Of a stretch of DNA of 51,927 nucleotides, positions 1,020 through 19,595 are shown piece after piece (the stretch's first letter is position 1; each line of letters starts with the position of its first letter). A program made the position numbers and the translations under genes. The notes beneath the pieces were generated by a model. It did not search any database and was not told the origin of the DNA. It was given only the letters and a program-made list of their open reading frames with translations. Source of the DNA: Acidobacteriota bacterium (GTDB taxonomy: Bacteria > Acidobacteriota > Terriglobia > 2-12-FULL-54-10); assembly GCA_009691245.1 (NCBI GenBank), contig SHUM01000021.1:1-51927 (forward strand), read 5' to 3'.

Positions 1020-1520
1020 TTACTTTCCTGTGGCCTTGAAGTCGAGGACCTTCAACTGGTAGGGGAGTTTCTTGTCGTTGACGATGTCGCCGCTGGCGAT
1101 CACTTCCTGGCCAAGCGCCAGCTTCGCGGAGTCGGCGGTCAGCGCGTATCTATCTTTCCCTGCCACCAAGACCAGGCCCGTTTCCTGCTTCTCCACTTTG
1201 CCGCGCGCCTGCACATGAAACTTCAAGACGGTGACGCTGGATTGGGCCACGGCTTCCCGCAGCAGAGCGGGCTGGAAGCTGGCGTTCGGTTTGTAGAGCA
1301 CCACGAACTGCTGGCGCTCGATGCTGATGGTTACTTTGTCAACGCCTTCCAGGCGTTTTAGCGCGATCTCCATGACCGCGGCGCAGCTGGGTCAGGTGAT
1401 GCCTTGCGCATCGGCGACCACTCGCTCCACTTGCGCGTGCGCTGCTGGGATGAGCGTGCCGCTGGCCAATACCATGAGCAACGCGAAAGTGGCGAGCGGG
1501 TTCCCGAATCGAAGCTGCAT
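1020..1520 (-). CDS. MerP-like periplasmic heavy-metal-binding protein with in-frame UGA (putative selenocysteine, UxxC)
   Basis: From ATG 1520 (RBS GAGGAG, 7 nt away) to TAA 1020 the frame is open except for one TGA at 1392-1394, giving 166 residues if decoded. Residues 1-29 are a signal peptide ending AHA. The mature protein begins as an HMA/MerP domain. The metal motif reads GIT-U-PSC, so the TGA is codon 43, at the first Cys of the usual GMTCxxC, and Cys46 is retained. Typical HMA sequence follows (LKRLEGVDKVTISIE). Residues ~105-166 form an extra, probably beta-rich, domain. MerP proteins capture Hg(II) in the periplasm and hand it to MerT, whose homologue lies 45 bp upstream. Selenocysteine is inferred from the codon position, the downstream hairpin and the neighbour. 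Without it the gene would be a nonsense pseudogene. ATG 1373 is the false start a gene caller would choose. Confidence 0.82.
1362..1380 (-). promoter_or_regulatory. Candidate bacterial SECIS hairpin in the MerP-like gene
   Basis: Eleven nucleotides after the TGA the sense strand forms CGCGGTC-ATGGA-GATCGCG. This is a 7-bp stem with one G-U pair and a 5-nt loop that starts 18 nt after the UGA. Bacterial SECIS elements have a loop roughly 16-37 nt after the UGA and usually a G early in the loop. Here the strict loop starts AU, but opening the G-U pair exposes GGUC, a motif also seen in the E. coli fdhF loop. SelB recruitment is inference. Confidence 0.55.
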
Positions 1521-1565: not shown

Positions 1566-1898
1566 CTACCGGTAACGGAGCCAGAGCGCGATCCATGCGC
1601 CGATCACGGCTAGGTTGATCAGTACGCTGGTGAACAGAATGGCTTTGATGCCCCAGGTGCGAAGCGTCTTTGGCCGACGCACGTATATCGCAATCTGATA
1701 AGCCAGCGACCCCAGCGCCAGCACAAAGAACACCGGCTGCAGCTTCTCCAGCCAGAACAGACATCCGGCACTGAGCAATCCAAACATTCCAAGTCCTGCC
1801 AGGACTTGCGGGAGCACTCATCAGCTCGGCGTTAGCAGTCCTGCGAAGATCGCTAGAATCCCTACTCGTTTTGGATCCATGTTTTTCATCGATACCAA
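1566..1898 (-). CDS. MerT-like membrane metal transporter with tandem in-frame UGA-UGA (putative Sec-Sec)
   Basis: The frame runs from TTG 1898 (GGAG 8 nt upstream; ATG 1889 and 1880 are alternatives) to TAG 1566, 110 residues, close to the ~116 of MerT. Two consecutive TGA codons (1821-1823, 1818-1820) are the only interruption. The local sequence FAGLLTPS-U-U-VLPQVLAG sits exactly where MerT helix 1 has its vicinal Cys pair, which accepts Hg(II) from MerP and carries it through the inner membrane. Downstream, LEKLQPVFFVLALGSLAY matches the MerT region around helix 2, and residues ~84-107 form helix 3. The MerT second cysteine pair in the cytoplasmic loop is missing. The conserved frame on both sides of the UGAs argues against decay. 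An ordinary caller would start at GTG 1817, after the key residues. Confidence 0.82.
1790..1808 (-). promoter_or_regulatory. Candidate bacterial SECIS hairpin in the MerT-like gene
   Basis: Nine nucleotides after the second UGA the sense strand forms a perfect 8-bp stem, CAAGTCCT-GGC-AGGACTTG, with a GGC triloop. The loop starts 17 nt after the second UGA and 20 nt after the first, inside the usual bacterial SECIS distance. Its first base is G, as in the known consensus. It lies fully within the coding sequence. The role in directing Sec insertion is inferred. Confidence 0.68.
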
Positions 1899-1947: not shown

Positions 1948-1977
1948 ATTCTAGGAACCGGCCGGAGCGGCTGTCAA
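1948..1977 (-). promoter_or_regulatory. Sigma-70-type promoter for the MerT/MerP-like pair
   Basis: The minus strand reads TTGACA (1977-1972), an 18-bp spacer, then TAGAAT (1953-1948). Transcription would start near 1941, giving a leader of ~40 nt before TTG 1898. The spacer holds the palindrome CCGGCCGG, which could be an operator. It is not a recognisable MerR site, and the spacer is not the 19 bp usual for MerR promoters. No regulator gene lies next to it. Confidence 0.7.
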
Positions 1978-14321: not shown

Positions 14322-14673
14322 TGGTGGAGGCGGGGGGAGTTGAACCCCCGTCCGAGTAGGCGCCTGATCGAGAGACTACATGCGTATTCGGTTCGTATTG
14401 CCTTCGCGGCTGCCCACATCGAGCCGACAACAGTGAGCAGCTGCTAGTCCGATAAGTCTCGCCCCAACTCCACGGACCGAGGAGCCAGCGCCAGCCTGCA
14501 AAAGTGTCGTTGTGTTCCGCCCTACAGGCGAAGCGGGCACAACGTCGCTAACAGTTAAGCAGCGAGGGCCAAATCATAATTGGCAATTAAGTTTGTTTCA
14601 CACGATTACGGGTGCGTGAACCCCGGCATGCCTCTCTACCCTGCTTCCTTCCCGTCGAACCCGTTTCGCCCCC
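14322..14673 (-). ncRNA. ssrA: Transfer-messenger RNA (tmRNA)
   Basis: A single-piece tmRNA of 352 nt. The 5' end GGGGGCGAAACGGGTTCGAC is the conserved tmRNA start. The 3' end has the T-arm GGGGGTTCAACTCCCCC and CGCCTCCACCA, which pairs with the 5' acceptor strand. The CCA is encoded. The tag frame at 14584-14555 encodes ANYDLALAA and stops at TAA; with the charged Ala the tag ends in the usual ALAA. A -10 box (TATAAT, 14715-14710) lies ~37 nt before the mature 5' end. The strand after CCA is T-rich, consistent with termination. It rescues stalled ribosomes with SmpB. Confidence 0.96.
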
Positions 14674-16055: not shown

Positions 16056-18317
16056 ATGGTCAGGCAAGTCTTTCAATTCGCCCGCGGACTTCTGGCGCTG
16101 TCGGTCTGCGCAGGTGGGCTCGACTATTTTTCCGCGTCTGGCTTGCTGGCCGCCAGTCCCGCGGCAGTCGTGAAAGCCACTCCCTTGCAGAGCAATGCCA
16201 AGGCGGCGCTGGAAGGGAAGGCGGTCGCCGATCGCAAGAAGCTCGAGACGTTCGCGGCGCAAAGCAAGGACAAAGCCCAGGCCGCGCTGGCCTACCTGGC
16301 CTTGGGCTACTCCAATTATCAGCAACAGAATTATTCCGCCGCCGCCGCCGCCTTTTTGAAGGCTCGCAATCCCGACAACCTGCTGCGCGACTATGCCGAT
16401 TATTATGCGGCGATGAATGCTCAGGCGAGCGGCGCATCGCAGGACGCGGAGAAATTCCTCGACGAATTTCAGCAGAATAATCCGGCCAGCCCGCTCGCGC
16501 CCAAGGCAGCGCTGGAACATGCCAAGCTGCTGATTGAGTTGCAGAAGCCGGAGGAGGCCGCCAAACGGTTGGAGGAAGCGCTCGGCCTGCCACAACCCTC
16601 TGCCACCTACTTTCTGGCGCGTGCTTACGATCTTGCTGGACGCCCGCTCGATGCCGTAGCGACATACCACAAAGTATTTTTTCAATACCCAGCCTCAGCG
16701 GAAGCCGCTGAAGCCAATATCCGTATGCAGAGCCTGCGCCTCAAGCTGGGCAAGCAATATCCAGTCGCCGAGGCCTCGTTGTGGCTGATGCGCGCCGACG
16801 CGCTGTTTGCCAAAAGTCGCTGGAAAGATGCCGAATCCGCCTACCGCAACGTGTCCACAACAACGTCCAACACGCCAGCGGCCGCCGCGCTGCGCCAGCG
16901 CGCCCATGTGCGCGTGGCCGTCTGCCAGTATCAGGCCGGGGCCACCTGGCCGGCGCTGAATGCGCTGCAGGCGATGGATTTTTCCCATGCCGGGGCCGAC
17001 GCCGAGGCCGACGCGGAACGCCACTATATCCTGTCGCTGGGCTATCGCAAGCTGCTGCGCATTGACCAGATGACGCAGCAATTAGAACTGCTCGGCAAGC
17101 GCTATCCCCAGTCGCCATGGTATGAGAAGGCGCTGATCTCTGCGGGAAACAATTATCTACTGGCCAAGGATTACAACCGCGCGGGCGATTATTACCGCCT
17201 GGCCTTCCAGAATTTTCCCGGTGGCGATGGCGCGGCCTACGGCCATTGGAAAGTGGCTTGGCAGGCCTATCGCGAGAGGAAACTGCCGCAGGCTCGCCAT
17301 CTGTTTGAGGAACATATCACGTCGTTCCCCAACAGTCCGCAGATATCGGCGGCGCTGTATTGGCTGGCCCGGCTGATGGAGCGCGAGTCTCCGGTGATTG
17401 CGTACCGCTACTACGCCAAGCTGCGCGAGGCCTTCCCCAATTATTATTACTCCCTGGTGGCCGCCGATCGCATCGCCGCACTGCCGCCACTTACTCCGGA
17501 GCAGGCCGCAGCCGTGCGCACGATTTCACTCGACAAAGTGCAACGCCGGACTGGCGTGTCATTGCCCGCAACGCTGACGCCGGTGGAATTGCGCGCTGGT
17601 GATCGCGTGCGACTGCTCGAGTCCGCCTGGTTGATCGATTGGGCCGTCAATGAACTGACTCCCATGCTTCCGCCCACGCCCAGCGCATCATGGGCCGGTG
17701 GCGAGATTGCCCGCATGGAAGAGCTGCGCGGCCGCCATCACGTGGCGCTGCGCCTTTCAAAAATTTATGTCCCCAGTTATTTTTCGCAGAGCATTGCCGA
17801 ACTTCCGCCCGACGTGTGGCGCCGTCTGTTCCCCATCCCGTACTGGGAGGACATCAAGAAGCGCGCGGCGGAATCCAATCTTGATCCGTACCTGGTGGCC
17901 GGATTGATTCGTCAGGAGTCCGAGTTCAACCCCGGCGCGCAGTCGCGCTCCAACGCGCGCGGCCTAATGCAGTTGCTGCCCTCCACGGCGCGTCTGGTGG
18001 CCCGCAAAGCGCCGGATCAGCGTTCCCGCAACTATCAACTCGGCCTGCTCTTCCAGCCGCAGTTCAATTTGATTTACGGAACCATGTATCTGAAGAGCGT
18101 GCTCGACCGTTTCGATGGAAGCATGGAGCAGGCCATCGCCAGCTACAACGCCGGCCCAGGCCGCGTGCAGCAGTGGATGAGCGAAGGCCCCTACACGGAG
18201 CCCGCCGAATTTGTCGAGAGCATCCCCTTCACCGAAACACGCGAATACGTGCAGGCCGTCCTGCGCAACGCGCAGATGTACCGCAAGATTTACGCCGAAC
18301 CTTCCGCCGCGAATTAG
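16056..18317 (+). CDS. Soluble lytic murein transglycosylase with TPR-type helical domain (Slt-like)
   Basis: A 753-residue exported protein. The signal segment (~1-35) is followed by a long superhelical region of TPR-like repeats (~60-520; e.g. YLALGYSNYQQQNYSAAAAA). The C-terminal SLT domain (~600-740) has the catalytic Glu621 in LIRQESEFNPGAQS. Further family motifs are ARGLMQLLPSTA and AIASYNAGPGRV. It cleaves peptidoglycan between MurNAc and GlcNAc, forming 1,6-anhydro ends, in the periplasm. The length is similar to E. coli Slt70 with a longer helical part. Confidence 0.93.
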   Translation: MVRQVFQFARGLLALSVCAGGLDYFSASGLLAASPAAVVKATPLQSNAKAALEGKAVADRKKLETFAAQSKDKAQAALAYLALGYSNYQQQNYSAAAAAFLKARNPDNLLRDYADYYAAMNAQASGASQDAEKFLDEFQQNNPASPLAPKAALEHAKLLIELQKPEEAAKRLEEALGLPQPSATYFLARAYDLAGRPLDAVATYHKVFFQYPASAEAAEANIRMQSLRLKLGKQYPVAEASLWLMRADALFAKSRWKDAESAYRNVSTTTSNTPAAAALRQRAHVRVAVCQYQAGATWPALNALQAMDFSHAGADAEADAERHYILSLGYRKLLRIDQMTQQLELLGKRYPQSPWYEKALISAGNNYLLAKDYNRAGDYYRLAFQNFPGGDGAAYGHWKVAWQAYRERKLPQARHLFEEHITSFPNSPQISAALYWLARLMERESPVIAYRYYAKLREAFPNYYYSLVAADRIAALPPLTPEQAAAVRTISLDKVQRRTGVSLPATLTPVELRAGDRVRLLESAWLIDWAVNELTPMLPPTPSASWAGGEIARMEELRGRHHVALRLSKIYVPSYFSQSIAELPPDVWRRLFPIPYWEDIKKRAAESNLDPYLVAGLIRQESEFNPGAQSRSNARGLMQLLPSTARLVARKAPDQRSRNYQLGLLFQPQFNLIYGTMYLKSVLDRFDGSMEQAIASYNAGPGRVQQWMSEGPYTEPAEFVESIPFTETREYVQAVLRNAQMYRKIYAEPSAAN

Positions 18318-18370
18318 GGGTTAGGGATTAGGTCCGGGTTCCCAATCCCTAATCCCCAACACCTAACCCC
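18317..18370. repeat. Nested inverted repeat between genes
   Basis: GGGGTTA (18317-18323) pairs with TAACCCC (18364-18370), and inside it GGGATTAGG (18324-18332) pairs with CCTAATCCC (18348-18356). It would form a strong hairpin just after the transglycosylase stop and may act as a terminator or mRNA end. There is no T-run. It resembles short dispersed palindromes of acidobacterial intergenic DNA. Confidence 0.6.
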
Positions 18371-18380
18371 CATTCGCATT

Positions 18381-18386
18381 TATAAT
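18381..18386 (+). promoter_or_regulatory. -10 box immediately before the aminotransferase start (leaderless transcript)
   Basis: A perfect TATAAT sits six bases upstream of ATG 18393. Initiation 6-7 nt after a -10 box would place the transcript start on the start codon. No RBS precedes the ATG. No good -35 is visible because the upstream DNA is the nested palindrome. Confidence 0.5.
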
Positions 18387-18392
18387 TCTGAA

Positions 18393-19595
18393 ATGACCAA
18401 TCGCAGCGAAGCAGCCATTCAATCCGCGCATCGCATCTTCCGGGCCGATCGCACCAAGGGGTTGGCCGAGTCCGTCATCCGTGAGATGACGCGGCTCGCG
18501 CTGCAACATGGTGCCGTGAATCTTTCGCAAGGCTACCCGGATTTTCCCGCGCCCGCGCTCATCAAGGAGGCGGCCAAGCGGGCCATCGACGCCGACGTTA
18601 ATCAGTACTCCATCACCTGGGGCGCGAAGAAATTTCGCGACGCGCTCTCGCGCAAGCTGACCGGCGAGCTGGGCTGGGAGGTGGACCCGGAGCGCGAGTT
18701 GACGGTGGTGTGCGGCGCGACGGAAGGCATGTTTGTGGCCTTCATGGCGCTGCTGAATCCCGGCGACGAGGTCATCGTTTTTGAGCCGTTCTATGAGAAC
18801 TACGGCCCCGACTGCGAACTGACCGGCGCGGTGCCCAGGCTGGTATCGCTGCATCCGCCGGATTTCCAGTTCTCGCGCGAGGCGCTGCGCGCGGCGTTTA
18901 ACTCGCGCACCCGCGCCATCATCATTAACTCGCCGAATAATCCCAGCGGAAAAGTTTTTAGCCGCGACGAGTTGGAATTGATCGCCGCGCTTTGCCGCGA
19001 ACATGACGTGTTGGCCATCACCGACGAAATCTACGAGCACATTTTATACGATGGTGCCGTGCACATTCCCATGTCCACGTTGCCGGGAATGCGCGAGCGC
19101 ACCGTAACTATCAACAGTTGCTCCAAGACCTATAGCGTAACGGGATGGCGCGTCGGATGGGTGGTGGCTGCGCCGGAGCTGACCAACAGCATCCGCAAAG
19201 TCCACGATTTTCTCACCGTGGGCGCGCCCGCTCCGTTGCAGGAAGCGGCGGCGGAAGCCGTCGCGCTGCCGCGCAGTTACTATGAAGAGCTTGCCGCTGA
19301 GTACGCGGTCCGCCGCACCAGGCTGTTGGGGATTTTGCAAGACACTGGTTTCCGGTGCTTCAAACCTTCCGGCGCCTACTACATCATGGCGGACATCTCT
19401 GCCTTCAGATTCCCGAACGATACGGAGTTCGTGAAGCACCTGATTACCACGATCGGAGTGGCCGCCGTGCCCGGCTCCAGCTTCTTCCGCAACCCGGTCG
19501 ACGGCGCGCACCTGGTGCGCTTTACATTTTGTAAAAAAGAAGAAACGCTGGACGAAGCGGGCCGCCGCCTGCTGAAACTTCGTCCACGCAAATGA
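18393..19595 (+). CDS. PLP-dependent aminotransferase, class I/II
   Basis: A 400-residue fold-type I aminotransferase. Seen motifs: NLSQGYPDFPAP near the N-terminus, NNPSGKVFSRDEL, ITDEIYEHILYD (Asp binding the PLP pyridine), and SCSKTYSVTGWRVG with the Schiff-base Lys245. The C-terminal Arg for the substrate carboxylate is expected in HLVRFTFCKK. It is similar to the YbdL/kynurenine aminotransferase-like group acting on methionine or aromatic amino acids. Exact specificity is unresolved. A TATAAT box lies six bases before ATG 18393, so the mRNA may be leaderless. Confidence 0.9.
   Translation: MTNRSEAAIQSAHRIFRADRTKGLAESVIREMTRLALQHGAVNLSQGYPDFPAPALIKEAAKRAIDADVNQYSITWGAKKFRDALSRKLTGELGWEVDPERELTVVCGATEGMFVAFMALLNPGDEVIVFEPFYENYGPDCELTGAVPRLVSLHPPDFQFSREALRAAFNSRTRAIIINSPNNPSGKVFSRDELELIAALCREHDVLAITDEIYEHILYDGAVHIPMSTLPGMRERTVTINSCSKTYSVTGWRVGWVVAAPELTNSIRKVHDFLTVGAPAPLQEAAAEAVALPRSYYEELAAEYAVRRTRLLGILQDTGFRCFKPSGAYYIMADISAFRFPNDTEFVKHLITTIGVAAVPGSSFFRNPVDGAHLVRFTFCKKEETLDEAGRRLLKLRPRK

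Follow-up and report, generated by a model that had tools for sequence, protein, structure and literature searches.

A candidate selenoprotein pair with tandem selenocysteine codons in a MerT-like gene of Acidobacteriota

Can two consecutive UGA codons of one bacterial gene both be read as selenocysteine (Sec), and what would a membrane protein with such a pair do? The question is raised by a small frame on the reverse strand of an acidobacterial contig (SHUM01000021.1), of which a stretch of 51,927 nt, called the window here, was analysed as a whole. A first-pass annotation had described a MerT homologue between 1898 and 1566, intact save for TGA-TGA at 1823-1818, and had interpreted both codons as Sec. 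We consider it quite probable that the locus is a two-gene operon encoding a selenoprotein pair, in which a MerP-like Sec-x-x-Cys protein and a MerT-like Sec-Sec protein would form a soft-metal relay, a single hairpin decoding both UGAs of the latter.

A tandem UGA conserved among acidobacterial species

Frame and coordinates of the earlier description were matched exactly, apart from its start codon TTG 1898. A start at ATG 1889 is more likely, because the ATG of relatives stands shortly before a conserved DPKR. With UGA read as Sec, the predicted product has 107 aa (MKNMDPKRVGILAIFAGLLTPSUUVLPQ...) and ends at a TAG codon (1568-1566). The features of the locus are collected in Table 1. Upstream of merT in three relatives (G003, G036 and G183), a TTGAC(A/T)-18-TATAGT similar to the promoter of the window was read by eye.

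Table 1. Features of the merT-like/merP-like locus (window coordinates).
Feature	Position	Strand	Basis
Sigma-70-like promoter upstream of merT, TTGACA-18-TAGAAT	1948..1977	(-)	11/12 matches
merT-like gene	1566..1889	(-)	frame kept in 11 species; profile match to MerT
UGA-UGA, two putative adjacent Sec codons (1823-1821, 1820-1818) at the MerT Cys-Cys site	1818..1823	(-)	TGATGA in 11/11 species; aligned to canonical CC
merT SECIS hairpin, 8-bp stem CAAGUCCU/AGGACUUG, loop GGC	1790..1808	(-)	frozen synonymous sites, pairing, covariation, published constraints
merP-like gene; 166-aa product with an N-terminus like a signal peptide, an HMA domain and a beta domain at the C-terminus	1020..1520	(-)	HMA PF00403 match; model
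Third in-frame UGA, first position of the HMA metal motif (GIT-U-PSC)	1392..1394	(-)	UGA in 4 species, TGC/TGT in 6
Candidate merP SECIS hairpin, 7-bp stem, loop AUGGA	1362..1380	(-)	all cells paired
Second conserved merP hairpin, CGCC...GGCG, loop GGA	1341..1357	(-)	covariation in Sec forms

Two other observations were made in the window. Its left end (1-67) encodes the fragment QYNTRRPHSALGYRPPAP, which we take to resemble the end of an IS3-type transposase, and a perfect 17+17 nt palindrome follows at 34-67; the metal gene pair may thus adjoin a mobile-element remnant. A tmRNA gene with the tag peptide ANYDLALAA was found at 14322-14673.

The string TGATGA is frequent (19 per strand in the window) and therefore carries little meaning alone; what goes beyond chance is its conservation. 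Whole genomes of the class were searched with stops read through, and seven further genomes carried the merT-like gene, each with exactly two TGAs; G183 and G446 were found as additional carriers afterwards. A single-sequence scan of genome contigs gave no merT-like match. An alignment-based scan of 84,980 genomes returned nine loci, all in acidobacterial MAGs and mostly from species already found, Luteitalea (L044) being the sole additional one. All nine displayed UU, though one of the two search patterns required Cys-Cys codons; in the close merT group, CC forms were not encountered. No merT-like relatives were found on plasmids or in viral contigs.

TGA TGA thus occurred at the same two codons in 11/11 acidobacterial species belonging to several families. 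Protein identity to the window was 56-69% among the 10 aligned members of these 11 species. While dS was near saturation, dN/dS lay mostly at about 0.1-0.35 on either side of the UGAs: purifying selection acts on both parts of the frame, including about 80 codons downstream. In a draft genome, a pair of neighbouring stops might suggest a sequencing error or a pseudogene, and the first-pass annotation had itself named random stop positions in relatives and read errors as findings that would speak against Sec. The stops of relatives were not randomly placed: the same two TGAs were present in 11 species, whose separate assemblies exclude a sequencing error. To this are added a dN/dS clearly below 1, synonymous sites that are frozen, a SECIS hairpin and a complete Sec machinery (see below). 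Error or decay of the gene was rejected on the separate assemblies and the purifying selection, and is extremely improbable.

Hairpin, Sec machinery and genetic code

Directly 3' of the UGAs lies a SECIS-type hairpin, which supports the Sec reading of the first-pass annotation. Its 8-bp stem is formed by codons 25-30, its GGC loop is enclosed by a U-A pair and starts 17 nt past the second UGA and 20 nt past the first, and its base follows the second UGA at a distance of only 9 nt. Codons 22 and 25-29 (alignment numbering) displayed no synonymous difference at all, against about 0.6 of same-residue pairs on average elsewhere. Of the about 28 columns whose residue is invariant, only the four of the hairpin were frozen in this way (1/C(28,4)=5e-5, by our own count). 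Pairing was likewise complete, with 100% of cells paired across the alignment, and was abolished by shifting the register. One pair was changed on both sides: in three species an A-U of the stem was replaced by C-G, and the adjoining A-U by G-U.

The published bSECIS model (PMC13188914) asks for a loop of 3-9 nt, a stem of 4-16 bp, a G in the first two loop positions, a distance of 16-37 nt from the UGA and an MFE <= -7.5, with a loop of the form N1-G[G/U]-N-N2. The merT hairpin (-10.6 kcal/mol) agreed with all four constraints for both UGAs, including the N1-G[G/U]-N-N2 loop. The folding energy of the window hairpin alone was unexceptional (z -0.5), and the case for a SECIS element therefore rests on conservation and covariation; single-sequence energy does not discriminate.

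Bacterial SECIS hairpins are known for decoding one nearby UGA. Here one hairpin apparently serves two adjacent ones, which raises the question of how SelB could be loaded again once a single translocation has taken place. Bacteria usually decode a single UGA as Sec with low efficiency, and two adjacent codons depending on one hairpin should fare worse. Only one UGA might thus be efficiently read, the other mostly terminating translation, so that the tandem would act as a selenium-dependent switch releasing mostly a peptide of 22-23 residues; the short distance between the hairpin base and the second UGA would suit such a switch. Yet both codons and the long downstream part of the frame are under purifying selection in the 11 species, and the spacing of the hairpin fits both UGAs, which makes the switch improbable. 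The preferred reading is that SelB and tRNA-Sec would decode both UGAs as Sec, aided by the single downstream hairpin.

A search for selA, selB, selC and selD had been proposed by the first-pass annotation, and all four were present in the genome of the window: tRNA-Sec (selC) on C16, SelB on C2, SelA on C54 and SelD on C9, the last carrying an in-frame TGA of its own (Sec-containing selD). SelB was found in 10/10 checked genomes having the merT-like gene; statistically, this co-occurrence is not strong, since SelB was present in 54/64 genomes overall. Two full-length SelB genes were recorded in G003 (C197 and C17). In G030, SelB (17208-19094) and the tandem-Sec merT (31075) occurred on one contig (C43), about 12 kb apart.

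The in-frame TGAs of two neighbouring genes and of selD could also suggest that the whole genome uses TGA as a sense codon, for Trp or another residue. This was rejected: TGA is the ordinary stop of 7/31 long frames in the window, so that the code is standard. Moreover, all three TGAs of the locus fall on Cys positions and selA, selB, selC and selD are all there. General reassignment is hence hardly conceivable, and on sequence grounds we regard the two proteins as real selenoproteins.

The MerP-like partner and the mer context

The merP-like gene begins 45 nt downstream of the merT-like gene. Its HMA domain matched PF00403 (1.6e-7, 32.1 bits, above the cut-off of 24.8), and the fold neighbours of its model (pLDDT 87) were CopZ, MerP and other HMA folds. 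Its scores stayed below the cut-offs of both TIGR02052 (MerP; 31.6 bits, cut-off 92.55) and NF041115 (44.5, cut-off 95). The in-frame TGA of this gene (1394-1392) was absent from the earlier account of the locus. The partner was present in 10/11 species, with Sec in 4 and Cys in 6 at this motif, a difference corresponding to one change on a nine-species tree. The UU of the MerT-like protein was invariant in 11/11 species while its partner exchanged Sec for Cys, which points to a selenium-requiring function of the membrane protein.

A candidate SECIS hairpin was also seen in merP. Its loop starts 18 nt past the UGA, three pairs were changed on both sides among the four Sec forms, and no such hairpin was predicted in the Cys forms (6 species). 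The first G of its loop is at position 3 (AUGGA), outside the first two positions of the bSECIS model. In the second conserved merP hairpin, about 40 nt separate the UGA from the loop, a distance beyond the range of the standard SECIS model.

The by-eye alignment to MerT in the first-pass annotation held at the level of profiles and failed for the window protein alone, which scored 20.0-20.4 bits against PF02411 (MerT), below the gathering cut-off of 32.9. All 10 members matched PF02411 (best E 3.8e-6), and these matches became much weaker once the UU positions were masked; a profile-profile comparison was therefore added. Against canonical acidobacterial MerT, it gave 96.4% with CC over UU, and 92.9% with the two UGA positions masked, the canonical MerT of other acidobacteria having Cys-Cys at the UU column. 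Against NF045683, the window protein scored 17 bits (cut-off 375). The vicinal pair in the first helix that characterizes MerT was present as Sec-Sec, and an extra Cys at position 43 was invariant. No Cys was found in the loop after helix 2 of any aligned member, where the cytoplasmic pair of MerT (Cys76/Cys82) would be expected. A weak AF2 model (pLDDT 64) placed helices at 6-30 (broken at 20-21), 36-71 and 79-106; no solved structure matching the protein by sequence was found.

A canonical mer operon was looked for around the pair and was not found: no MerA match exceeded the TIGR02053 cut-off in the 11 genomes, and no other mer genes were recognised beside the pair in the 11 loci, as read from sequence. 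Sub-cut-off matches occurred in all 11 genomes; the best one in the genome of the window (L052, G000:C15:20739-22136) is a MerA-like flavoprotein that lacks the Cys pair at the C-terminus, and a frame for a TVP38/DedA-type membrane protein shares its strand. Because of its sub-cut-off score and the lack of a cytoplasmic Cys pair, of MerA and of mer neighbours, the protein is named MerT-like on its sequence features and is not filed as MerT. As MerA and the cytoplasmic pair are absent, Hg(II) is put forward below as a substrate in conditional terms.

A putative soft-metal relay and its known counterparts

With tandem UGA conservation, SECIS, Sec machinery and gene pairing established, a relay may be proposed by analogy with MerP and MerT. 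The operon would supply two proteins, one in the periplasm that binds metal at a Sec-x-x-Cys site, and a small one in the membrane whose first-helix pair is Sec-Sec. The MerP-like protein would catch a soft metal ion, Hg(II) or another thiophilic ion like it being the most likely candidate, and hand it over to the Sec-Sec pair; from there, we infer passage across the inner membrane in the inward direction, to a receiver in the cytoplasm. The affinity of selenolates for Hg(II) far exceeds that of thiolates, and Sec would raise the affinity or keep the site reactive. A selenium-based soft-metal relay is the most likely function.

The lack of a MerA above the cut-off in the 11 genomes, of a surrounding mer operon and of the cytoplasmic Cys pair, together with an HMA domain equally close to copper chaperones, would also agree with a real selenoprotein pair acting on something other than mercury. 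Its substrate might be a different soft ion (Cu(I), Ag(I)), or a Sec-Sec/diselenide couple might serve as a transmembrane redox relay. The vicinal pair in the first helix and the MerP-like partner nevertheless reproduce the MerT/MerP layout, and no evident redox partner adjoined the pair in the 11 loci, read from sequence only; we hold a non-mercury role to be possible but not favoured. A bolder and still tentative reading, with a chance that we place not far below even, is that one short hairpin sets two consecutive Sec which, with the Sec-bearing MerP-like partner, would give organisms devoid of mercuric reductase a selenium-based path of very high affinity for mercury or an ion like it.

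In the known system, Hg(II) passes from Cys33/36 of MerP to Cys24/25 of MerT, then to MerT Cys76/82 and finally to MerA (PMC5715351). Compared with this relay, the present pair retains the first two stations, with Sec, and misses the last two. Like MerT (PF02411; Tn501/Tn21), the MerT-like protein displays a vicinal pair in the first helix with a comparable P-V-LG and LxxxxP-F pattern after it, an adjoining merP-like gene and a profile match of 96%. It differs from MerT by a Sec-Sec pair, a score of 20 bits against a cut-off of 32.9, one extra invariant Cys, and the absence of a Cys76/Cys82 pair and of MerA in the genomes.

Selenoproteins of related types have been described. A 'putative mercuric transport protein' of PF02411 (ABB16073.1) carries one Sec in a C/SxxU motif (PMC13188914); it is likewise a MerT-type heavy-metal selenoprotein, whereas here two adjacent Sec would occupy the Cys-Cys site. 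The NCBIfam MerT/CopZ fusion-like selenoprotein NF045683 is also of MerT type; ours is stand-alone and is set apart by score. On the MerP side, a MerP selenoprotein was noted in the GOS metagenome (PMC2398784), and NF041115 comprises UxxU metal-binding proteins. Both share with our MerP-like protein an HMA-type domain with Sec, while the latter displays UxxC and an added C-terminal beta domain.

No UU motif of prokaryotes is listed in the 119-family selenoprotein inventory of 2026. As far as found in NCBIfam, the GOS paper and the reviews of 2022 and 2026, the MerT-like protein would be the first bacterial Sec-Sec, and its hairpin the first single bSECIS to serve two adjacent UGAs. Two consecutive Sec are known from an algal PDI_e selenoprotein with a GUGUU motif, described as the first such case (PMC7539508). 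It resembles the MerT-like protein in its Sec-Sec, but is an unrelated protein disulfide isomerase of a eukaryote, whose SECIS is of the eukaryotic type and whose insertion mechanism is unlike that of the bacterial merT.
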